From the IMG/VR virus record IMGVR_UViG_3300032308_001326, positions 1 to 29,096 of that record: a DNA stretch of 29,096 bases; one strand, 5' to 3'. Under the pieces are notes generated by a model that saw only the letters and a program-made list of their open reading frames with translations, was not told where the DNA came from and searched no databases. Position numbers and translations under genes: made by a program. Source of the stretch: a virus. Below, piece after piece: positions 3,838-14,686 of this stretch (the stretch's first letter is position 1; every line of letters starts with the position of its first letter).

Positions 3838-5037
3838 ATGCCGATTGACCAGAAGATGCTCGACGAAGAACTGCGCCGAGTCCGTGAAAGCGGTTTTGGG
3901 TTTAATCCGATGGCTGGCAAGGCTGCAAAGCAGAAGAAGATGCGGGATGAGCGCAAGCGCGAGGAGAAGGAGCCAACACCAGAGCCAACAGCGTTAGACA
4001 TTCAAGCCGGGCGCCAGTTTGGGTTTGATCCTAACGTAGAGCGCCTGGGCATCCTCCCCTATCCTCGGGGGGCCTTGACGAAGGGCAGCAAGGTTGACTG
4101 GTCCGATTGGGTGGCGCCTCAGGTTGTGTACGATGCCGCGAAGGCGTATGCACTGCCAGGCTATGCCGCACAGGGCGGTGACTATACGCCAGAGGAGGTC
4201 GCCAACATGGCCGGAACAGTGGCCGGCGGAGGGATGGCTTTAGGTCGGGCTCCGGCAGGCGCTTTGGGGATGATGATAGGCCCAAGATCTAAGTTATGGG
4301 ATAAAGACGTTGCCGATATAGCCCAGCAAATGGAAAGAGAGGGACGCAATAGAAACGAAATTTGGCAAGCCACTAGAACTTTTCGAGCGCCTGACCAAGG
4401 ATTACGCCAAGAAATCCCAAGCATTGACATGAGTTATACGCCAAGCAAAGTTGCGCGTCGACAAGCAATGGAGGGCCGCAACTTGCATAACGATGATTTG
4501 TATGGCACGGTAGACGAGTTTATTGAGCATCCTTTTCTAAAAGAAGCTTACCCTGAATTGTTTAACCAAAGATTCTTGCAATTACGCCCAACCAACCCAG
4601 ACTTTCACGATGTCCCAGAGTCTATGGGGTTTTATTTTCCGCCAACAAAAAGTATTGTTCTAAACTCAAATCCGTCTTTAATGGATCGTAGATCGGCGGC
4701 GCTGCATGAGTTGGCCCACGCAATACAAGACATAGAGGGATGGCCAGGCGGAACAAGTCCTGAGCATATGGCAGGGAAAATGTCAAAACGCATAATTGAA
4801 AAATCAAAAGGCCAAACCAAAAAAGATCCAATAGATTATTATTCAGATCCATTTAAAGCTTATAAAAACGCATCGGGAGAATTGGAAGCCCGCATGGTGC
4901 AAAAAAGGCGAGATTACGACGCCGAAAAAAGAAGAAAAATTCCTCCATTTATGGATTACGAAGTTCGAGACGAGTTCCACATCCCAAATTATGCAAGCGG
5001 TGGGAGTGTTGGCTTTTTGAACACAATAAATAGGTAA
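3838..5037 (+). CDS. Putative zincin metallopeptidase-domain protein between terL and portal
   Basis: The product is 399 residues. Residues 285-300 contain ALHELAHAIQDIEGWPGG, a zinc metallopeptidase signature (H290-E291-x2-H294). A downstream ASGELEAR block (345-352) could supply the third zinc ligand, as in peptidase-like domains of large polyvalent phage proteins (LPD23-like, from memory). The N-terminal 160 residues are different: a charged Lys/Glu-rich segment and a Gly/Ala-rich stretch (GTVAGGGMALGRAPAGALG) that may be membrane-active or flexible. The C-terminus ends in NYASGGSVGFLN, a Gly-Gly motif seen in other proteins here. Base composition changes inside the gene: 4141-4200 is about 62% GC and 4801-4860 about 30%, which suggests that the peptidase half was acquired. 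Its place suggests a role in head maturation or DNA ejection, but this is inference. Confidence 0.75.
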   Translation: MPIDQKMLDEELRRVRESGFGFNPMAGKAAKQKKMRDERKREEKEPTPEPTALDIQAGRQFGFDPNVERLGILPYPRGALTKGSKVDWSDWVAPQVVYDAAKAYALPGYAAQGGDYTPEEVANMAGTVAGGGMALGRAPAGALGMMIGPRSKLWDKDVADIAQQMEREGRNRNEIWQATRTFRAPDQGLRQEIPSIDMSYTPSKVARRQAMEGRNLHNDDLYGTVDEFIEHPFLKEAYPELFNQRFLQLRPTNPDFHDVPESMGFYFPPTKSIVLNSNPSLMDRRSAALHELAHAIQDIEGWPGGTSPEHMAGKMSKRIIEKSKGQTKKDPIDYYSDPFKAYKNASGELEARMVQKRRDYDAEKRRKIPPFMDYEVRDEFHIPNYASGGSVGFLNTINR

Positions 5038-5044
5038 GACCAAT

Positions 5045-7639
5045 ATGGCAACCCAGTTCCCAGTTGACGCCGAGGCCGATCGCTTCGTTGATGGCCAGCC
5101 AGATACGGCGCCAGCAGAAGACATTGGATCGCTGTTTGAGGACTCCGACATTGAGGAGTTGCCCGACGGTGGCGCTATGGTCACGACAAAGTCTGAGGGG
5201 CCTCGAGAGAATGAGGACTTCTACCGCAACCTGGCTGACGACCTTGACCTTGAGATGGACGAGGACTTCGGCGGGCTGGCGCTGCGCTACATCGAGCTAG
5301 TTGAGAAGGATCGGCGGGCTCGAGAGAAGCGCGACGAGCAGTACGAGGAGGGTATCCGCCGCACAGGGCTCGGCAACGATGCGCCTGGCGGGGCCAACTT
5401 CAGCGGTGCCAGCAAGGTAGTCCACCCTGTCATGGCCGAGGCCTGCATCGACTTTGCCTCTCGAGCTATCAAGGAGTTATTCCCGCCCGATGGCCCTGTA
5501 CGGACGAATATCCTAGGTGACGTTGACGAGAACAAGCTAGCCGCGGCCGAGCGCAAGCGCGACTTCATGAACTGGCAGTTGACCCAGCAGATTGAGGAGT
5601 TCCGGGACGAGCAGGAGCAGATGATGACGCAGCTACCGCTAGGTGGCTCGCAGTACATGAAGCTCTGGTACGACGAGAAGAAGCGCCGGCCCTGTGCTGA
5701 GTTCCTGCCGATCGACAACGTCCTGCTGCCGTTCTCCGCGGTGAACTTCTACACGGCGCAGCGGGTAACGGAGGTCCACGACATTACCCAGTACGAGTTC
5801 GATCGCCGGGTTGCGTCTGGGCTCTACAAGGACGTTAGCTGGATGTCGTCTGCGATGGAGCTTGATCCAACCAAGTCGCAGAAGGCCACCGACAAGATTG
5901 AGGGGCGCAACCAGGGCGAGAACGAAGACGGGATGCGCCGTATATACCATGTATATACATGGCTTGAGATCAAGGGTGACGAGTACACGAAGGGTGAGTC
6001 GGCGCCGTACATTCTGATGATTGACGACTACAACTCTGAGGCGATCGGGTTGTACAGGAACTGGGAGGAAGGCGATGACACGATGGCGAAGTTGGACTGG
6101 ATCGTGGAGTTTAAGTTCATTCCTTGGCGGGGTGCTTACGCTATCGGCCTTCCTCATCTTATTGGCGGTCTGTCTGCTGCTCTCACCGGTTCTCTTCGCG
6201 CCCTTCTAGACTCCGCCCACATCAATAACGCCGCGACACTCTTAAAGCTCAAGGGGGCCAAGCTATCGGGCCAGTCCCTGCAGGTTGAGGTAACGCAGGT
6301 GGCCGAGATCGAGGCGGCGCCAGGCATTGACGACATCAAGAAGCTTGCGATGCCGATGCCGTTCAATCCGCCCTCTCCCGTTCTACTTAGCCTGCTGTCG
6401 TGGTTGACGGACGCCGCTAAGGGGGTTGTGACGACGAGCGAGGAGAAAATCGCTGACGTCCAGGCCAATGCACCTGTGGGGACGACGCAGGCGTTGATTG
6501 AGCAGGGCGCCGCGGTGTTCTCTGCAATCCACGCTCGGCTTCACGCTAGCCAGGCTCGAGTGCTAAAGATCCTGGGCCGCATCAACAAATGGTACCTGGA
6601 GGATATGCAGCGCGATGAGGTGGTTGAGGGTCTGGACATCAACCGCGAGGACTTCTTCAAGTCGGCCGATGTGATCCCGGTGAGTGACCCGCACATCTTC
6701 TCTGAGACCCAGAGGATGGCGCAGACGCAGGCCGTAATGGCTTTGATGGAGAAGAACCCTGATTTGTTTAATCGGCAGGCTGTTGTTCAGCGGTTTTTAA
6801 AGCAGATTAAGGTTCCGAATATAACGGAGTTGATGATTAACACCGCTGGGCCAGAGAAGGCTGATGCTGCTACAGAGAATGTGGCAATGTCTATTGGTCA
6901 ATCGGCTAATGCGTACCCAGAACAGGATCATTTGGGTCATATTCAGGTGCATTTGGACTATGCAAAGGACCCTGTATATGGTGGAAACCCGCTAATTGCG
7001 CCGACTTTCTCTCCAAAAGTCATTGAACACTTGAAACAACACATTGTTCTGTGGTATTTAAGCAGAATGAATGGCTATGTCAAGAAGACAACAGGGGAAA
7101 CTGTTGAAGATTATGGCTCAATGCCCGATCCGAAGCCGATGGATAAGATATTTGGTGCCGTATCTCAACACGTTATGCTAGATACGAAGGATGCATTGGC
7201 TGGAATCATGCCGGTTATCCAGCAAATCATGCAGCAGTCGCAGCAAAGTAAGCCACAACCCGAAATGCCGCCCGATGCACAGGTTCTTTTGCAGACTAGC
7301 ATGGCCGAGACCCAGCGTAGGGCGCAGCGAGATCAGCAGGAGATGCAACTCAAACAGGCAGAGCTGCAGGCTGATGCGGCTTTGCGGACTCAAAAGATGC
7401 AGGCTGACCAGGATTTGGCTGAAAAGGACCTTGAATTGCGTTACGGCACCAAAGAACTTGAGATGCAACTCAAGGAGCAGATTGAGGCCGCGAAGATTGA
7501 GCGCGATGCAGTTGGTTTAAAGAATGACCAGGACAAGATTGCTATTGAAATGGCAAAAGGTGGCCTGGTTAGGGATGATTCGACGGGTATGTCTGAGGGC
7601 GGTTTAATTCAACAAGGGGATGGTTATGAAAACCAATGA
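5045..7639 (+). CDS. Portal protein
   Basis: The product is 864 residues, long for a portal. It has an acidic N-terminal extension (about residues 1-75), a core with FSGASKVVHPVMAEACIDFASRA and the PLGGSQYMKLWYDEKKRRP block, and clip/stem/wing regions typical of podovirus portals. The C-terminal third has a long Gln/Glu/Lys coiled coil (about 753-836), possibly a barrel helix, then two Gly-Gly motifs, MAKGGLV (836-842) and MSEGGLI (849-855). Twelve copies form the vertex ring for DNA entry, to which TerL and later adaptors bind. Codon use shifts to A/T-ending codons from about base 6750 onward, suggesting a recombination point inside the gene. Assignment rests on position after terL, size and core motifs. 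Confidence 0.92.
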   Translation: MATQFPVDAEADRFVDGQPDTAPAEDIGSLFEDSDIEELPDGGAMVTTKSEGPRENEDFYRNLADDLDLEMDEDFGGLALRYIELVEKDRRAREKRDEQYEEGIRRTGLGNDAPGGANFSGASKVVHPVMAEACIDFASRAIKELFPPDGPVRTNILGDVDENKLAAAERKRDFMNWQLTQQIEEFRDEQEQMMTQLPLGGSQYMKLWYDEKKRRPCAEFLPIDNVLLPFSAVNFYTAQRVTEVHDITQYEFDRRVASGLYKDVSWMSSAMELDPTKSQKATDKIEGRNQGENEDGMRRIYHVYTWLEIKGDEYTKGESAPYILMIDDYNSEAIGLYRNWEEGDDTMAKLDWIVEFKFIPWRGAYAIGLPHLIGGLSAALTGSLRALLDSAHINNAATLLKLKGAKLSGQSLQVEVTQVAEIEAAPGIDDIKKLAMPMPFNPPSPVLLSLLSWLTDAAKGVVTTSEEKIADVQANAPVGTTQALIEQGAAVFSAIHARLHASQARVLKILGRINKWYLEDMQRDEVVEGLDINREDFFKSADVIPVSDPHIFSETQRMAQTQAVMALMEKNPDLFNRQAVVQRFLKQIKVPNITELMINTAGPEKADAATENVAMSIGQSANAYPEQDHLGHIQVHLDYAKDPVYGGNPLIAPTFSPKVIEHLKQHIVLWYLSRMNGYVKKTTGETVEDYGSMPDPKPMDKIFGAVSQHVMLDTKDALAGIMPVIQQIMQQSQQSKPQPEMPPDAQVLLQTSMAETQRRAQRDQQEMQLKQAELQADAALRTQKMQADQDLAEKDLELRYGTKELEMQLKEQIEAAKIERDAVGLKNDQDKIAIEMAKGGLVRDDSTGMSEGGLIQQGDGYENQ
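5947..5962. repeat. 16-bp perfect palindrome inside the portal gene
   Basis: CCATGTATATACATGG is its own reverse complement. GTATATAC occurs at 5940-5947 and again at 5951-5958. It lies in coding sequence. Chance would give about 0.4 such palindromes in a window this size, so any role is doubtful. Confidence 0.3.
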
Positions 7640-7769
7640 TCAGGATCAGAAAAGCGTTAATGTGAACCAACACAAACGCATTGCAATGGGCGAGAAGCTT
7701 GACGGCCAATCGCTCAAGGGCACTAATGAGAAGAAGGGGGGCCTTCAGCAGGCTAAAGAAAAGAAATGA
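7626..7769 (+). CDS. Small phage protein (47 aa) after the portal gene
   Basis: ATG 7626 starts inside the end of the portal gene (14 nt overlap), with AAGGGG as a good ribosome site just before it. The stop TGA overlaps the ATG of the next gene. The product is 47 residues, very polar and basic, with HKRIAMGEKLDGQSLKG and a KKGGLQ motif. Short proteins with an AMGE-L-DGQSLKG pattern occur next to portal genes in other phages as far as I recall; the function is unknown. KKGG matches the Gly-Gly motif found in the portal tail and other proteins here. Confidence 0.7.
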   Translation: MKTNDQDQKSVNVNQHKRIAMGEKLDGQSLKGTNEKKGGLQQAKEKK

Positions 7770-7948
7770 GGATTATTTCTGATCTTATTGGCCTGATTGA
7801 AGAGCAAAAGGGATTTGTCGCCGACTCAATGTTAGCCGGTGCAAATAGCTGGGAGGGGTACCAGCGACTGGTGGGCCAGCATATTGGCCTTCAGATGACT
7901 TTGGACTTTATCAACAATTTACTTGAGGATGGTGATGCAAACAAATGA
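7766..7948 (+). CDS. Hypothetical protein (60 aa)
   Basis: ATG 7766 overlaps the stop of the 47-residue gene (ATGA). The product is 60 residues, mostly helical by eye, with IISDLIGLIEEQKGFVADSM and a GLQMTLDFINNLLED end. It resembles small uncharacterised phage proteins found between portal and scaffold genes. It overlaps the next gene by 14 nt. No motif suggests an activity. Confidence 0.65.
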   Translation: MRIISDLIGLIEEQKGFVADSMLAGANSWEGYQRLVGQHIGLQMTLDFINNLLEDGDANK

Positions 7949-8345
7949 ACTTGAATGGGCTTTCCCATCGGTGGAACCGGGGGCGCGGCCGGCAGGTGGA
8001 CGAATTCTTGTCCAACTGAGACGGACCAAGCGTAAGACGGCAGGCTCGGGAATCATTCTCGTGGAGGAGACGAAGGAGACGGAGAAGTGGAACAACATGG
8101 TGGCCAAAGTCATTGCGTTGGGTCCTCTGGCTTTCTGTCACCGTGACACTCAGCAGCCCTGGCCTGAAGGCGCCTGGTGCAAGGTGGGTGATTACATCCG
8201 GGTCCCTAAGTGGGGCGGAGATCGCTGGGAGGTTCCAATCCCTAGCGAGGACAAGGAAGACCCGGCCCTTTTTGCCATCTTTAACGATCACGAGGTTATC
8301 GCGATTGTGACTGGCAATCCTCTTGACATGAAGGTGTATGTATGA
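7935..8345 (+). CDS. GroES-like (Cpn10) co-chaperonin
   Basis: I start at ATG 7935 (136 aa), which has a GAGG ribosome site six bases upstream, rather than TTG 7923. The pattern PAGGRILVQLRR, a mobile-loop-like stretch RTKRKTAGSGIILVEE, and VAKVIALGP matches the beta-barrel of Cpn10 proteins; a later VGDYIRVPKWGG block fits the second half of the barrel. Family members cap host GroEL so that large proteins can fold; T4 gp31 does so for its capsid protein. The location directly before scaffold and capsid genes supports the same job here. At 136 residues it is longer than bacterial GroES (about 97) and carries an insertion (about residues 68-85). It overlaps the scaffold gene by 4 nt. Confidence 0.8.
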   Translation: MQTNELEWAFPSVEPGARPAGGRILVQLRRTKRKTAGSGIILVEETKETEKWNNMVAKVIALGPLAFCHRDTQQPWPEGAWCKVGDYIRVPKWGGDRWEVPIPSEDKEDPALFAIFNDHEVIAIVTGNPLDMKVYV

Positions 8346-9208
8346 CCGACGATACTCAAGACCAGGAAGTTGGTGATGTTGTTGAGGAGCAGGACGGTTC
8401 CGCGGTTGCGCTAGTTGACCTCCCTGATGAGCCTAGTGAATCGGGGGAGTCTAGCTCTGAGACGGCGGAGCAGAACCGCAACCGGCGCCGTGAGAAGAAG
8501 GAGCGGTTCAAGCGGATCAATGAGGAGAAGGATACCCAGCTAACGCTACTGCAGCGTCAGAACCGTGAGCTGATGGAGCGTCTATCGGCCGTTGAGCGCC
8601 GCGGCGTCCAGTCCGAGATTGCCGGGGTGGACAAGAAGATCCAAGAGGAGGAGGAGCGTTACCAGTGGGCTCTGGGCCAGGTTAAGAAGGCCGTGAGCGA
8701 GGTTGACGGCGAGACCTTTGCCTCAGCGCAGCAGGTGCAGTCTGACGCCGAGAAGAAGCTTGAGTATTGGCGCTGGAAGAAGCAGTCAATGGTTGAGCAG
8801 GCGGAGGCGCCACCAAAGGCTGACCCTCGAGTTATGGACCATGCCAACAGGTGGATGGAACGTAACAAGTGGTTCAACCCCAACGGCGGCGATACGGACA
8901 GCGACATTGCTCGGGTGATTGACGCGCAGTTGGCGAGGGAGAACTACGACCCTACTTCCCAGGAGTACTGGGAGGAGCTTGATTCTAGATTGAGAGATAG
9001 ATTGCCAAATAAACAAAGACGCCCCAGAAGTGTTGTCACTGGGTCCGAAAGAGAGTCAACGCCTCAAGCAAGCGGGGATTCTTTTTACATTAGCCCTGAG
9101 CGTGTAAAGGCAATGAAGGACGCTGGTTTTTGGGATGATCCAAAGATGCGAGCCAAGATGATTAAACAATATGCGAATTGGAATCGCACCAACCGGGAAA
9201 CTGCGTAA
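8342..9208 (+). CDS. Scaffolding protein (putative)
   Basis: The product is 288 residues. It has an acidic N-terminus (about 1-45, DDTQDQEVGDVVEEQD), a long coiled coil (about 48-150: REKKERFKRINEEKD through the LLQRQNRELMERLSAVERR region), a conserved DHANRWMERNKWFNP block (about 166-180) and a C-terminal helical part. Acidic N-terminus, coiled coil and placement between portal and capsid genes are typical of phage scaffolds, which direct capsid assembly and then leave. I see no protease domain here. GC content falls from about 63% (8881-8940) to about 48% (9001-9120), marking a possible recombination point at about 8985. The start overlaps the co-chaperonin stop. Confidence 0.8.
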   Translation: MTDDTQDQEVGDVVEEQDGSAVALVDLPDEPSESGESSSETAEQNRNRRREKKERFKRINEEKDTQLTLLQRQNRELMERLSAVERRGVQSEIAGVDKKIQEEEERYQWALGQVKKAVSEVDGETFASAQQVQSDAEKKLEYWRWKKQSMVEQAEAPPKADPRVMDHANRWMERNKWFNPNGGDTDSDIARVIDAQLARENYDPTSQEYWEELDSRLRDRLPNKQRRPRSVVTGSERESTPQASGDSFYISPERVKAMKDAGFWDDPKMRAKMIKQYANWNRTNRETA

Positions 9209-9751
9209 ATGGATGCTAGAATAAAGAAACCGTTATCTCTTGGCGGCCGCGAAACTCGTGCTAGCGAGGACGCATCAAGGGCTCCTGTAGAGGAGAAGTT
9301 CATGTCAGCGCAAGAACGTCGAAAGATGTGGAGCGACGAGTGGACACAGACCGCGCTACCAAAAGTGCCTGAACTTCCGGGATGGCATCTTTGCTGGCTT
9401 TCGACGACAAACAGTTACGACAGCGTTGATAAGCGGATGCGACTTGGGTACGTTCCCGTTACAGCGGATGAGTTTCCAGGGTTCGAGAATTACCGCGTAA
9501 AGGCTGGAGAACAGATCGGTCACATTGCTTGCAATGAGATGGTTTTGTATAAGCTTCCGATGGACGTTTATCAAGACTTGATGTTGCATATGCATCATGA
9601 GTTGCCCAACGACGAGGCGGATAAGATCCGAGTCCAAGTTGAGAATCTTCAGGGTGCAAGGGACAGTTCTGGCAAGAGTTTGGGTCGAGTAGAAGGCGAA
9701 GGATTTGGTGACTTTGACCGAAACGTAAAAACGCCCATATTCCAAGGGTAA
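9209..9751 (+). CDS. Conserved phage head-region protein, unknown function
   Basis: The product is 180 residues from ATG 9209, which directly follows the scaffold stop. An alternative start at ATG 9302 (149 aa) has a better ribosome site (AGGAGA), so the N-terminal 31 residues are uncertain. The conserved-looking part is PGWHLCWLSTTN, RMRLGYVPVTADEFPGF and HIACNEMVLYKLP. I recall such proteins next to scaffold and capsid genes in other environmental podoviruses, without known function. The end, GEGFGDFDRN, is Gly/Asp-rich. Its position suggests a capsid-associated or assembly protein. Confidence 0.75.
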   Translation: MDARIKKPLSLGGRETRASEDASRAPVEEKFMSAQERRKMWSDEWTQTALPKVPELPGWHLCWLSTTNSYDSVDKRMRLGYVPVTADEFPGFENYRVKAGEQIGHIACNEMVLYKLPMDVYQDLMLHMHHELPNDEADKIRVQVENLQGARDSSGKSLGRVEGEGFGDFDRNVKTPIFQG

Positions 9752-9770
9752 CTTTTATTAGGAGTGTGCT

Positions 9771-10397
9771 ATGTCAGCAACTAGTGCTCCGTTCGGCCTG
9801 CGCCCGGCGTTCCATCCTTCTGGTCTGGATCGCGCTCAAGCGTTGGCGAATGGTATTGCGTCGGCTTACGATACCGACATTCTCAAAGGGGCTCCGATCA
9901 AGCAGAACACGAGCGGGAACATTGTTCTTGCTGCTGCATCGGATGCAATTCTTGGTGCCTTTGCAGGCGTTGAGTGGACTGATACGACGGGTCGCCGCCG
10001 TGTCAACAACTACTGGCCAGCGAACACCGCCTACCAAACTGGATCATGCGTCGCCTATTTCTATAACGACCCCAACATCGTTTATGAAATCCAGACCGAT
10101 GCAACGATTACGCAGGCTTCCATCGGCGACGAGTACAACTTCTCGGCCAACACTGGTTTTACAGTCTCCAGCGGCTCTAACGTCACTGGCCTGTCAACCA
10201 CCGGCCTGGGTGTTTCTACCGCTGCCGGCGCAGCCGGAACTGGCGTGATGCGTGTTGTTGATATTTCGCCTGGCGTTGACAATGCATGGGGTGACCCGTT
10301 CGTTGTTGTGCGGGTTCAGATCTCCAAGCACCAGTACGCTTCTATCAACGTGTCGTCGAATGCGGCGTCCACTGCGGCCTACCCGGCTGCGCTGTAA
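9771..10397 (+). CDS. Putative head decoration/stabilisation protein
   Basis: The product is 208 residues with a clear AGGAG ribosome site at 9761. It begins SATSAPFGLRPAFHPSGLDR, then has IASAYDTDILKGAPIKQ and AGVEWTDTTGRRR, and is otherwise beta-rich with many Thr, Ser and Gly. Proteins of this pattern lie just upstream of the major capsid gene in many marine and freshwater phages and are usually thought to decorate or stabilise the head. That role is inferred from position and composition. It ends 16 nt before the capsid gene, so the two are probably produced together. Confidence 0.7.
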   Translation: MSATSAPFGLRPAFHPSGLDRAQALANGIASAYDTDILKGAPIKQNTSGNIVLAAASDAILGAFAGVEWTDTTGRRRVNNYWPANTAYQTGSCVAYFYNDPNIVYEIQTDATITQASIGDEYNFSANTGFTVSSGSNVTGLSTTGLGVSTAAGAAGTGVMRVVDISPGVDNAWGDPFVVVRVQISKHQYASINVSSNAASTAAYPAAL

Positions 10398-10413
10398 TAG
10401 GAGGGACTGAATC

Positions 10414-11328
10414 ATGGCAGCTTCAATGCGTAGTACTGACTTCCGGAGCATCGTTGAGCCTATCCTCAATGAATGCTTCGATGGAGTTTATGACCAAAGG
10501 ACCGATGAATGGTCGCGTGTTTTCCGCGAGCAGAACGGTATCCCCCGCAACTACCACGAAGAACCCGTCCTGTACGGTTTCGGCGCGGCACCACAACTGC
10601 CAGACGGGACTCCGGTTTCGTACCAGCAGGGCGGTGTGCTCTTCCTCAAGCGTTATGTGTACAACGTCTATGGCTTGGCCTTCGCGTTGACCAAAGTGCT
10701 TGTTGAGGACGGCGACCATATCCGTATCGGTCAGGTGTATTCGCGTCACCTTGCTCAGTCTTTGATTGAGACCAAAGAGACGCTTTCTGCGAACGTCCTT
10801 AACCGTGCGTTCAACTCGTCCTACGCTGGCGGTGACGGTGTTGCCCTTAACTCGGCATCACACCCAATCGCCACTGGTACGTTTAGCAACCTGTTGTCAA
10901 CCGCGGCTAACCTTAGCCAGACCTCGCTCGAGCAGATGTTGATCCAGATCCGTCAGGCTGTGGACAACAACCAGAAGAAGATTCGCTTGGTGCCCCGCCA
11001 GTTGGTGGTCGCTCCTGGCAACGTCTTCCAGGCTGAGGTGCTGCTCAAGAGTGTTTTGCGCTCGGGTAACGCCAACAACGACATCAACCCGATCAAGTCG
11101 ATTGGGCTGCTGGACGAAGGCGCGGCTGTTCTTTCCCGTCTGACTAACCCATCCGCATGGTGGGTGCAGACCGACGCTCCAGAGGGCATGAAGCTTCTGA
11201 TGCGCCGTAAGCTTGAGAAGACGATGGAAGGGGATTTTGAAACCGATTCGATGCGCTACAAGGCAACTGAGCGTTACGACGTTGGCTTCACCGATCCTCG
11301 CGCAATGTACGGAACTCCGGGCGTTTAA
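10414..11328 (+). CDS. Major capsid protein (Mu gpT-like)
   Basis: The product is 304 residues, usual for the Mu gpT-like capsid family (HK97 fold). Recognisable parts are FDGVYDQRTDEWSRVF near residue 20, a GLAFALTKVLVEDGDH helix, AQSLIETKETLSANVLNRAF, LVPRQLVVAP and the end YKATERYDVGFTDPRAMYGT. Hundreds of copies form the head shell. AGGAGG lies about 10 nt before the start. A strong terminator follows the stop after 12 bases, closing the head operon. No N-terminal delta domain or maturation protease of the HK97 type is seen, and a separate scaffold is present. Confidence 0.93.
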   Translation: MAASMRSTDFRSIVEPILNECFDGVYDQRTDEWSRVFREQNGIPRNYHEEPVLYGFGAAPQLPDGTPVSYQQGGVLFLKRYVYNVYGLAFALTKVLVEDGDHIRIGQVYSRHLAQSLIETKETLSANVLNRAFNSSYAGGDGVALNSASHPIATGTFSNLLSTAANLSQTSLEQMLIQIRQAVDNNQKKIRLVPRQLVVAPGNVFQAEVLLKSVLRSGNANNDINPIKSIGLLDEGAAVLSRLTNPSAWWVQTDAPEGMKLLMRRKLEKTMEGDFETDSMRYKATERYDVGFTDPRAMYGTPGV

Positions 11329-11340
11329 GTAGCGCCTGGC

Positions 11341-11374
11341 AGGGGGGCGGTTCAAAAGGCCTCCCCCCTTTTTT
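11341..11374 (+). terminator. Intrinsic terminator after the major capsid gene
   Basis: AGGGGGG (11341-11347) pairs with CCCCCCT (11363-11369); inside it GG (11349-11350) pairs with CC (11360-11361) around a nine-base loop, with a C-T mismatch between the two stems. Six T follow (11369-11374). This is a strong intrinsic terminator. Downstream genes need their own promoter or read-through; 34 bp separate it from the next start. Confidence 0.92.
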
Positions 11375-11407
11375 GTTTAATTGGTCAAGCTTTTCAAGGA
11401 GAAGACC

Positions 11408-12406
11408 ATGCCTCAGTTTTCAGATGATTTGTTTCTCGGTCCTGCTCAAACATATATGGGCACGGGCCTTCGCAATTATTCCACCACTGCGACTGGCGGT
11501 ACAGGTGGCTCGTCTTCTTCTACCCTGACTGTTACGGCAGTTGGGTTTGGTGCGCCAATCATTGTTGGGATGTACGTTGATGGCACGTCTGTCACCGACG
11601 GCACTTTCATCACGGCGTTTGGCACCGGTACTGGCGGCGTTGGCACCTACACGCTGAACCAGGCAATCAACATTGCAAACAGCACTGCATTGACGTTGCA
11701 TGACCTGGAGCCGTTTGAAAATCCATCTCCAATGAGCATTGGCGTTGGCCCATTAGGTCGCGTCTACGCTTGGGATGTGGTTCCTCAGGCGTTGGTTACC
11801 AATAACATTGCCGCATCACAGACCCCTGCCGCCGCCGGTTCTTTGACACTGACTGCCGGTACTTCTGTGAAGTCTGTCACTACTGTGAGCGGTGTAACCG
11901 TGTTGCAACTTGACGTGCCTCGCGCAGTTCAGTTGACCACAGCATCTGGAACAATTGCAACTTCCCGCACGATCACCGTATCTGGTTTTGACGTTTACGG
12001 TCAGGCGATGAGTGAAGCAATTGCAACGGGAACAACCTCTTCTGCTGTGGCTAACGTCGCTGGCAAAAAAGCGTTCTACCAAATCACTGGTATCACAATC
12101 AGTGGCGCGTTGCCGGTAGCGATCACTGTTGGTACTACTGACGTTCTGGGTATCCCAGTTCGGGTACCTAACGTGGCCTATGTTGCTAGCGTCAAGAGCA
12201 ACAACACACTAGCGCAAGATGCTGGTACGTTTGTTGCGGCGGATACTGCAACGGCTACGACCACCACAGGCGACGTTCGCGGCACCTACGCTCCTGCCAC
12301 TGCATCGAACGGTATTGTTCGGACGGTGATGGGAATCCTGTTGCCAGGTATTGCAGTCGGCCCCAATGCAACCCGTGTCGGCGCTCTGGGCGTCACTCAG
12401 GCATAA
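11408..12406 (+). CDS. Virion structural protein with inserted beta module
   Basis: I start at ATG 11408 (332 aa), with AAGGAGA six bases upstream, rather than the upstream in-frame start at 11381. Residues about 1-20 and from about 95 on form one conserved unit: NPSPMSIGVGPLGRVYAWDV, LVTNNIAASQTPAAAG, FDVYGQ, KKAFYQI, NTLAQDAGTFVAADT and ending GVTQA. I know this pattern from hypothetical structural proteins next to capsid genes in environmental phages. Residues about 22-90 look like an added Gly/Thr/Ser module (TATGGTGGSSSSTLTVTAVG and GTGTGGVGTYTLNQA) of the kind seen in fibres. Beta-rich throughout with no membrane segments; probably exposed on the head or tail. Confidence 0.7.
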   Translation: MPQFSDDLFLGPAQTYMGTGLRNYSTTATGGTGGSSSSTLTVTAVGFGAPIIVGMYVDGTSVTDGTFITAFGTGTGGVGTYTLNQAINIANSTALTLHDLEPFENPSPMSIGVGPLGRVYAWDVVPQALVTNNIAASQTPAAAGSLTLTAGTSVKSVTTVSGVTVLQLDVPRAVQLTTASGTIATSRTITVSGFDVYGQAMSEAIATGTTSSAVANVAGKKAFYQITGITISGALPVAITVGTTDVLGIPVRVPNVAYVASVKSNNTLAQDAGTFVAADTATATTTTGDVRGTYAPATASNGIVRTVMGILLPGIAVGPNATRVGALGVTQA

Positions 12407-12419
12407 GGAGTAGCGAATC

Positions 12420-13373
12420 ATGCGTGAATTTAAACCAATGGTCAAGATGGAGACCACCGAGCCTACGGTTGAGCTAAAACTCAAGAAAGGCGGCGCTGTT
12501 GAGAAGAAAATGGCCGGTGGCGGCGCCCCGATGGGTGCAATGGTCGGTGCCCCTAAAGGCGGGATGATGGCTGGCGCCAAGCCTAAGAAGCCTTCCCTGG
12601 CCTCTCGCCGCCGTGCAATGATGGCTAGCGGTGCTGCTGGGGCTCCCTCGGGTCGTGCAGAGGCGATGATGGCTGCTGCCCCTCCTGCCATGCCTCCTAG
12701 CCTTCCTCCTAAGCCTCCTATGTCCGCCATGAAGAAGGGTGGCGAGATGGAGTCTCCCAAGGTCCACAAGGCCGAGATGAAGGAGATTTCTGGCATCAAG
12801 AAAGAACTTACCCGTCACGAGGGTAAGCCTGCTAGCAAGGCTCACCGCGGGCTGAAGAGTGGTGGTGTTGTGAACGGCAGTTGCGGTTACAAGACTGGCG
12901 GCGTCGTGAATGGCCAGGGCGGCTTTAAGACTGGTGGTGTGGCGATGTCTAACGCTGGTGGTTATGCCAAAGGCGGTGCTGCAAAAAAGTTTGCTGAGGG
13001 CGGCCGCGTACAGCACGACGGCGGTCCGGAGCAGATGCCACAGGGCAAGAAGAAGCCAGCAGGTCCAGTTTCCATCAACCAACTCTCCGGCACCTATAAG
13101 AAGGGCGGGGCGGTGATGATGGCCGAGGGTGGAGACCCTAACGCGGACTTCTATCGTCGCAAGACGGAAGAGAACGAGGCGGATGCGAAGGCGGTCAAGG
13201 ACGCTCTTTTGTATATCCCTCGCAAGGTTCGCAAGATGGGCAAGGCTCTCGTTGGCTCGTTCGGCTCTAACGACTTTCGTCCTGCTCAGGGCAAGGGCTC
13301 GGTGACTGAGACTGAGCGCGAGGTTAGTCGGACGGTTGAGCCTGGTAAGAAGCGCGGCGGCGCAGTCTGTTAA
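12420..13373 (+). CDS. Gly/Ala/Lys-rich repeat protein with many Gly-Gly motifs
   Basis: The product is 317 residues, basic and of low complexity: Met, Ala, Gly, Pro and Lys predominate in residues 20-110. It holds at least ten Gly-Gly motifs (LKKGGAV, MKKGGEM, YAKGGAA, FAEGGRV, YKKGGAV, MAEGGDP, RGGAV). Residues 145-181 form three tandem copies of a 12-13-residue unit ((L/Y/F)K(S/T)GGVVNG), encoded by 36-bp units at 12852, 12888 and 12924. Residues about 225-280 are a charged folded-looking part. It ends GGAVC. I do not recognise a family, though similar Gly-Gly-rich proteins occur in uncultured phage genomes. Position between two virion genes suggests a structural or assembly role. The start has GGAG 10 nt upstream. 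Confidence 0.7.
   Translation: MREFKPMVKMETTEPTVELKLKKGGAVEKKMAGGGAPMGAMVGAPKGGMMAGAKPKKPSLASRRRAMMASGAAGAPSGRAEAMMAAAPPAMPPSLPPKPPMSAMKKGGEMESPKVHKAEMKEISGIKKELTRHEGKPASKAHRGLKSGGVVNGSCGYKTGGVVNGQGGFKTGGVAMSNAGGYAKGGAAKKFAEGGRVQHDGGPEQMPQGKKKPAGPVSINQLSGTYKKGGAVMMAEGGDPNADFYRRKTEENEADAKAVKDALLYIPRKVRKMGKALVGSFGSNDFRPAQGKGSVTETEREVSRTVEPGKKRGGAVC
12852..12962 (+). repeat. 36-bp tandem coding repeats
   Basis: Three units at 12852-12887, 12888-12923 and 12924-12962 encode 12, 12 and 13 residues of the pattern (L/Y/F)K(S/T)GGVxxG. The DNA of the units differs at many third positions while the protein is kept, so the repeat is old and selected at protein level. Confidence 0.75.
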
Positions 13374-13377
13374 GGGC

Positions 13378-13393
13378 GGGGGCTCCGGCCCCT
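13378..13393 (+). terminator. Weak intrinsic terminator or stem-loop
   Basis: GGGGC (13379-13383) pairs with GCCCC (13388-13392) around a TCCG loop, which with the closing C-G pair belongs to the stable UNCG class; a G-T pair extends it. Only a poor T run follows (TGTCTTCATT), so termination would be partial. It sits in the 39 bp between two virion genes and could also serve as an RNA-stabilising stem. Confidence 0.45.
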
Positions 13394-13412
13394 GTCTTCA
13401 TTGGAGATTAGT

Positions 13413-14165
13413 ATGGGCGTTTATTCTTCAGCCACTCGTCAGGGTGCGTATGAGCCTTTTGAACTTCAGGTTGCCCGCGGCCAAGTTGATGGTCACACCC
13501 CTATAGAAATTTTTGGCTACAGTGCTGCAATTGGCGCTACTGCACAAGGCCCGATGTGGGAAGGTCAAACCCAGTCGGGTGGTTTGTATACACCACCATC
13601 AGCGGCGGCACCTTTGGTTTTGGTGAGTAGTTCTGCATCAGACACAACAGCACTAAGCGTAAGAATTGAAGGGTGTGGGGCAAATTTTGCTGCGTTGACT
13701 GAGACCATTGCGCTTAATGGCACGACCAACGTAACTACCACAAATTCTTTTTTGCGTATCAATGGGATGTATGTGACTAATGGCACAAACGTCGGGACCA
13801 TTACAGCAAAAATTAGTTCGACAACCTACGCGCAAATCAATGCCGGTGTTGGTCAGACGCAGACGTCAATTTACACCGTGCCTGCTGGTTACACATTCTA
13901 CTTGTCTTATGTCCAGTACGACGCCGCGATTGGATTTACGTCTAGTGCGTTTATGACTGGCCAAGAGTACAACAAAGACAATGTAACTGGACAAATTACC
14001 GTAACTCACCAAACTGTTTTTGTGCAAAAGCAAGAAATACCATACACCTGCCCGGTCCCTCATACTGAAAAAACTGATATGCAATTTTGCGTAAAGGCAA
14101 GCGCTGGTGGGCCATTGACGGCAAGTTTGTATGCAGGCGGTTTTCTTATCAAAAACCCGGACTAA
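13413..14165 (+). CDS. Beta-rich virion structural protein, unknown function
   Basis: Start at ATG 13413 (250 aa), with GGAG nine bases upstream; the in-frame ATG 13401 lacks a site. The sequence is beta-rich. It opens GVYSSATRQGAYEPFELQVARGQVDGHT, split here by its motifs GAYEPFELQVARG and VDGHTPIEIFGYSAAIG, which resemble conserved proteins of marine and freshwater phages with no known function. It continues with WEGQTQSGGLY, a sandwich-like centre with many Thr and Asn, YTVPAGYTFYLS and a PYTCPVP end. These proteins are usually treated as minor capsid or tail parts. Third codon positions are richer in A/T than in the capsid gene. No signal peptide or membrane helix is seen. Confidence 0.65.
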   Translation: MGVYSSATRQGAYEPFELQVARGQVDGHTPIEIFGYSAAIGATAQGPMWEGQTQSGGLYTPPSAAAPLVLVSSSASDTTALSVRIEGCGANFAALTETIALNGTTNVTTTNSFLRINGMYVTNGTNVGTITAKISSTTYAQINAGVGQTQTSIYTVPAGYTFYLSYVQYDAAIGFTSSAFMTGQEYNKDNVTGQITVTHQTVFVQKQEIPYTCPVPHTEKTDMQFCVKASAGGPLTASLYAGGFLIKNPD

Positions 14166-14167
14166 TC

Positions 14168-14686
14168 ATGCCTAGCAAGTCGCCAGCCCAAGAACGGTTG
14201 ATGCAGGCCGTCGCTCACAACCCTAAGTTTGCGAAAAAGGTCGGCATCCCTACGTCTGTCGGGAAAGAATTTGCAAAGGCTGATGAGGCAAAGATGAAGG
14301 GCGGTGGTTTGTACGCCAACATCGCGGCCAAGAGGAAGAGGATAGCCGAGGGTAGCGACGAGAGAATGCGTAAGCCTGGCTCTCCTGGCGCCCCGACTGC
14401 GAAGGCATTTGAAGAGTCAGCCAAGACCGTGAAGCTGAAGAAGGGCGGGCCTAGTCTTGCTATAGGTCGCGGTGAGAAGCTGCCAGCGGGCCAGGGAGCG
14501 GGTTTGACGGCCAAGGGTAGGGCTAAGTACAACCGCGAGACTGGAAGCGATCTGAAGGCTCCTCAGCCGGGCGGAGGCGCAAGGCGTGACTCGTTCTGTG
14601 CTCGGATGGGTCCGGTTGCGGAGAAGAGCGAGAAGGGAAGCCGTGCTCGAGCCTCGATGCAACGATGGAACTGTCCGGGGTGGTAG
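14168..14686 (+). CDS. DUF6321-domain protein
   Basis: Start at ATG 14168 (172 aa), 3 nt after the previous stop; the upstream in-frame start lies inside the preceding gene. The N-terminus SKSPAQERLMQAVAHNPKFA plus KKVGIPTSVGKEF is a known recurrent phage pattern. The C-terminal half, GAGLTAKGRAKYNRETGS, LKAPQPGGGARRDSFCARM and QRWNCPGW, matches DUF6321 as I remember it. The middle holds KMKGGG and LKKGGPSLAIGRGE, again the Gly-Gly motif. It is very basic, so it may bind DNA inside the virion; function is not known. Its stop directly abuts the next ATG. Confidence 0.75.
   Translation: MPSKSPAQERLMQAVAHNPKFAKKVGIPTSVGKEFAKADEAKMKGGGLYANIAAKRKRIAEGSDERMRKPGSPGAPTAKAFEESAKTVKLKKGGPSLAIGRGEKLPAGQGAGLTAKGRAKYNRETGSDLKAPQPGGGARRDSFCARMGPVAEKSEKGSRARASMQRWNCPGW

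Follow-up and report, generated by a model that had tools for sequence, protein, structure and literature searches.

The DNA analysed here, hereafter the window, is the 29 kb IMG/VR virus record IMGVR_UViG_3300032308_001326, in which a terminase gene is followed, in this order, by genes for a polyvalent-type protein, a portal, a GroES-like protein (named through its annotated relatives), a capsid protein and a DUF6321 protein (Table 1). In the polyvalent-type protein the Pfam matches to LPD23, DUF6782 and M78 all fall under the gathering cut-off. Another product may act as a scaffold, as its place in the gene order suggests, and is referred to as the scaffold-position protein. The same short sequence, built around a glycine pair, is found on several otherwise unrelated proteins of this phage and of its relatives. 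The first-pass annotation had reported it, as (K/A)xGGx(V/A/L), in the metallopeptidase, the portal tail, a 47-residue protein, the protein encoded at 12420 and the DUF6321 protein; the observation was upheld for the 12420 protein, the metallopeptidase and the portal, was lost for the 47-residue protein, and applies to the DUF6321 protein in a weak form.

The comparison covered about 160 related contigs, gathered from viral contigs in scans that used the portal and the 12420 protein as queries, whose genes were called by a simple longest-ORF script that got some small genes wrong. Isolated or complete relatives found through the portal include Caulobacter phage RW, Roseobacter phage CRP-901, Pelagibacter phage HTVC027P and MW202545, an uncultured genome from Manatee Spring. 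A scan of genome contigs returned four MAG contigs, three of them betaproteobacterial, which is too weak for naming a host. Literature searches with the motif strings and with the SDSIPA region described below returned nothing relevant.

Table 1. Genes and motif sites of the locus (positions in the window)
Feature	Position	Strand	Remark
Polyvalent-type protein: LPD23-like region and zincin (HELAH) metallopeptidase	3838..5037	+	Pfam; HELAH in sequence
YASGGSVG, candidate C-terminal tag of polyvalent protein	4990..5013	+	
Portal protein, long C-terminal helix, then disordered tail with two motifs	5045..7639	+	phrog_1216
MAKGGLV, portal tail	7550..7570	+	only in closest relatives plus L018
MSEGGLI, portal tail	7589..7609	+	
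KKGGLQ, 47-residue protein, judged not an instance	7731..7748	+	GG to GA in close relatives
Scaffold-position protein, without motif here	8342..9208	+	motif in 8/45 relatives
GG-repeat protein, Lys/Gly-rich, candidate multivalent hub	12420..13373	+	family of 49; 18-sequence alignment
LKKGGAV	12480..12500	+	GG and V invariant across family
MKKGGEM	12729..12749	+	
LKSGGVV	12852..12872	+	
YKTGGVV	12888..12908	+	
FKTGGVA	12924..12944	+	
YAKGGAA	12963..12983	+	
FAEGGRV	12990..13010	+	
YKKGGAV	13095..13115	+	
C-terminal KRGGAVC	13350..13370	+	family often ends KKRGGxxC, terminal Cys
DUF6321 protein	14168..14686	+	PF19846 above its cut-off
LKKGGPS, weak motif form, DUF6321 protein	14435..14455	+	

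A protein family with many copies of the motif

As learnt from the relatives, the motif spans seven residues, [F/Y/L/M]-[K/A]-x-G-G-x-[V/A/I/L], with an aromatic or hydrophobic residue at position -3. Among homologues of the 12420 protein (the GG-repeat protein), position -3 shows an excess of Tyr (11-fold), Phe (6-fold) and, at about 3-fold each, Leu and Met; Lys and Ala are 2- to 3-fold over-represented at -2, and Val is 4.6-fold over-represented at the second position past the glycine pair. Counting was done with a strict pattern, [FYLM][AKNRS]xGGx[VAILM], with the third position restricted. The GG-repeat protein of the window, said earlier to hold at least ten copies, has 16 GG pairs, eight of which fit the strict motif against 0.07 expected from shuffles. 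The remainder of the interval 3838-14686 holds three strict sites, one in the metallopeptidase and two in the portal tail, against 0.21 in shuffles (p=0.002), and the window outside this interval has none against 0.47 expected. With the earlier pattern, the shuffle check was passed by the GG-repeat protein (8 against 0.47) and not by the rest of the proteins encoded in the interval (3 against 0.91, p=0.06).

Across the 49 non-redundant members of the GG-repeat family, each with 4 to 11 strict motifs, 386 sites were counted against 3.1 expected, a 126-fold excess; the strict pattern was learnt from this family, so that this count is not independent, while the counts in other families are. Five GG pairs are invariant in an alignment of 18 sequences with 37% mean identity. 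A repeat at the DNA level was ruled out, since GG in the 12420 gene is written with six different codon pairs, which places the constraint on the protein and not on the DNA. By its composition the protein is likely unstructured; it has no tblastn match in isolated phages and no match in PHROGs or Pfam. In MW202545, where both the GG-repeat and the polyvalent protein are present, they carry eight and four sites, respectively. RW and CRP-901 are without either protein, and in a broad scan their motif count is at chance, the ejection-type protein of RW excepted. The motif and the two proteins are in this way present or absent together, a co-occurrence in few genomes and not a test.

Single copies at the ends and joints of other proteins

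The polyvalent slot was defined as the proteins encoded between terminase and portal, of which 68 non-redundant ones were analysed. They are long mosaics with ART-PolyVal, PcfJ, LPD23, GDSL lipase or GP88 domains, and relatives of the window pass the cut-off for ART-PolyVal, PcfJ and LPD23, as expected of polyvalent-type multidomain proteins. The order of the five domains varies among the polyvalent proteins of L017, L020, L021, L022, L068 and L079. The slot holds 92 strict sites against 9.2 in shuffles and 135 sites of a looser pattern against 11, the looser form being present in 57 of the 68 proteins. In 34 of 63 slot proteins a looser site lies at most 45 residues from the C-terminus, against 6.2 if sites were spread uniformly, and homology blocks tend to end near the sites (87 against 29 and 84 against 31 by chance). 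Three types of tail are seen repeatedly, GGxVxGLSxVEKV, GGxVx(n)SxNxDxMxxEL and GGTVxDYIxITERPL, and one of these is found behind four or more unrelated segments. As the first-pass annotation stated, YASGGSVG ends the polyvalent protein of the window (residues 385-392 of 399), and its relatives have GGxVxGLSxVEKV-type tails in that place, with 19 strict sites in nine proteins against 1.0 expected (20-fold). Among motif-bearing proteins left unassigned, 60 of 69 occupy the polyvalent slot, with their genes directly upstream of the portal gene. The GG matches in the relatives' terminases (PEEGGIV) lie inside the conserved protein body and were left uncounted.

Towards the end of their structural genes, complete relatives encode an ejection-type protein of about 1100-2700 residues, whose C-terminal region matches tape-measure proteins of PHROGs and isolated phages. 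The motif sits upstream of this conserved region; its GG is invariant in all eight relatives whose copies include the upstream part, in a linker that is otherwise variable. The model of this tail is of low confidence (mean pLDDT 54).

Both portal motifs were confirmed within the final 29 of 864 residues. The portal model is of low confidence (mean pLDDT 47), with a helix at 743-838 and coil at 839-864, and only the post-helix coil was used; solved structures offered no convincing relative of the portal. The family has four strict sites in 33 non-redundant proteins against 0.6 expected (6.7-fold). When loss in close relatives was checked, the GG-repeat protein kept the motif, and retention in the portal was limited to its nearest relatives, those of at least 79% identity, and to L018. 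Scaffold-position proteins carry eight strict sites in 45 proteins against 0.2 expected (40-fold), and the DUF6321 family 11 in 31 against 0.3 (37-fold). The window's own DUF6321 site, listed in the first-pass annotation, has no hydrophobic residue after GGx; 10 of the 31 relatives have a proper motif. DUF6321, together with an N-terminal PSKSPAQ...KKVGIP region, also matches the ends of longer proteins (phrog_10346, 3477, 727 and 22033), and looks like another C-terminal add-on.

The site proposed for the 47-residue protein had to be dropped: the motif is present in none of 22 relatives, and the close ones read KKGALQ or KKGALE. In the family counts the strict motif was absent from GroES, the adaptor-like protein and several other families; in the fibre-like family it was under expectation, and most other families were at or below chance. 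The capsid set had no strict sites, with only three non-redundant members counted.

A candidate docking tag and alternative explanations

The choice of unrelated proteins for the head interior is unexplained for most phages. The motif described here is enriched in, and confined to, particular protein classes, with a characteristic placement in them, and since these are polyvalent, ejection-type, scaffold-position, portal-tail and many-copy proteins, the simplest account would be a common docking during head assembly. Among the explanations offered in the first-pass annotation, a putative docking peptide or common binding partner fits the distribution best. We tentatively propose, at a little less than an even chance, that this motif serves as a short linear tag by which internal, ejected proteins are docked or loaded, and that the GG-repeat protein is a multivalent hub. 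According to this model, a tag of about [FYLM][KA]xGGx[VAIL], placed in flexible tails and linkers of cargo proteins, would be bound by a groove of a putative shared receptor, and tagged proteins would enter the head before DNA packaging and exit with the DNA. The GG-repeat protein, with about eight tags, may act within the procapsid as a hub or adaptor; polyvalent effectors would bear one C-terminal tag and often one per module joint; the tape-measure-like ejection protein, presumed from its protein type to be ejected, would bear one ahead of its conserved C-terminal region; and the portal tail of the closest relatives, expected to face the head interior, would bear one or two. If true, the tag would be visible in raw genomes of phages, uncultured ones included, and would mark their candidate injected effectors. 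Weighing against a tag are the small number of carriers among portals (3/33) and scaffold-position proteins (8/45), and the polyvalent proteins without the motif. The ejection-type protein of RW bears NMARGGYAV in a phage without the hub, so that the GG-repeat protein is not required there.

Cleavage could also gather one motif on unrelated proteins. The first-pass annotation had offered the peptidase encoded at 3838 as the enzyme, a proposal that is not supported, because the catalytic region is detectable, weakly, in 2 of 15 relatives, and because L005, with a portal 96% identical, is without the peptidase region and keeps the two portal motifs and those of the GG-repeat and ejection-type proteins. 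Motif and peptidase do not go together in the slot either, where HExxH occurs in 12 of 68 proteins against 57 of 68 for the looser motif. A host protease or an unrecognised phage one, separating polyvalent modules and trimming tails during head maturation, is a broader form of the idea that we consider unlikely. Sites at module joints speak for it, as does the processing of the P1 polyvalent proteins DdrB and DarA before or during packaging (PMC5512222). However, beyond the rarity of the window's peptidase region, the prohead protease Peptidase_S78 was found in none of the 15 relatives in a search with positive controls (the MPTase-PolyVal search gave no signal in its own controls). Moreover, several proteins end 2-4 residues past GG (KKRGGAVC, LAKGGIVNV, FKKGGKVNW); in the GG-repeat proteins the last residue is often Cys, a feature that would be odd in a discarded stub. 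Cutting at eight sites would leave the GG-repeat protein in small pieces.

It is improbable, in our judgement, that the motif reflects recurrent local structure, for instance a turn with a short strand at the start of a small domain or a flexible hinge between modules, that arose in convergent linkers with no common partner. This would agree with the GG that unrelated phages' tape-measure proteins carry beside a GPGTGxSDSIPAxLSDGEFV region, and with the sites lying where the models are unstructured and of low confidence, but Tyr/Phe at -3 and Val at the second position past the glycine pair are enriched beyond what Gly/Lys composition gives, and polyvalent proteins show a weaker but similar residue pattern. 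That the Lys/Gly-rich repeats bind or condense head DNA like RGG-type boxes, with copies elsewhere incidental, is highly improbable: GG-repeat proteins have a mean net charge of about +38, yet the acidic forms FAEGG, MAEGG and YADGG are common, and single copies gather at polyvalent C-termini far above chance.

Comparison with known packaged and ejected proteins

A docking or loading tag would have partial precedents. Short capsid-targeting sequences address the internal proteins of T4 and DarB of P1 to the head (PMC5694885, PMC9024508), and each is likewise a short peptide borne by injected proteins that have no other relationship. They are N-terminal, whereas the GG motif lies mainly at C-termini or between modules, a difference that by analogy argues against the tag, and those of T4 are cleaved off. 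The P1 Dar proteins have no consensus among them (PMC9024508), unlike the proteins described here, with one consensus and a multi-copy protein bearing it. Two early packaged P1 proteins, DarA and Hdf, are needed for other Dar proteins (PMC12810830); the GG-repeat protein, which is repetitive, can be likened to them by its proposed hub role alone.

Iyer et al. (2017, PMC5512222) predicted that the polyvalent proteins encoded by phages and conjugative elements are packaged and injected. The slot proteins of this group resemble theirs, with ART-PolyVal, PcfJ and LPD23 domains beside portal and terminase, and it is solely this gene position that suggests packaging and injection of the proteins described here. 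The words glycine and linker are absent from the text of that paper; a candidate GG tag at module joints and protein ends extends its description.

Among the tape-measure proteins with the GPGTGxSDSIPAxLSDGEFV region, GG lies just upstream of it, as in the ejection-type proteins of this group. The wider comparison sampled seven records; GG precedes the region in an Arthrobacter phage, a Klebsiella phage, a cyanophage, DSL-LC04 and Caulobacter phage RW, HTVC027P has the variant xGGRIGY, and HTVC104P is without the motif. It is doubtful, though conceivable, that a loading or ejection tag with a dedicated hub is used by many aquatic tailed phages, their tape-measure proteins included; the matched tape-measure proteins include those of Arthrobacter phages of another type. 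A related stretch, GxGDGxSDDIPAxLADGEFV, is common to the ejection-type proteins of L090, L093, L096, L098, L100, L111 and L112 and to tape-measure proteins of other phages.
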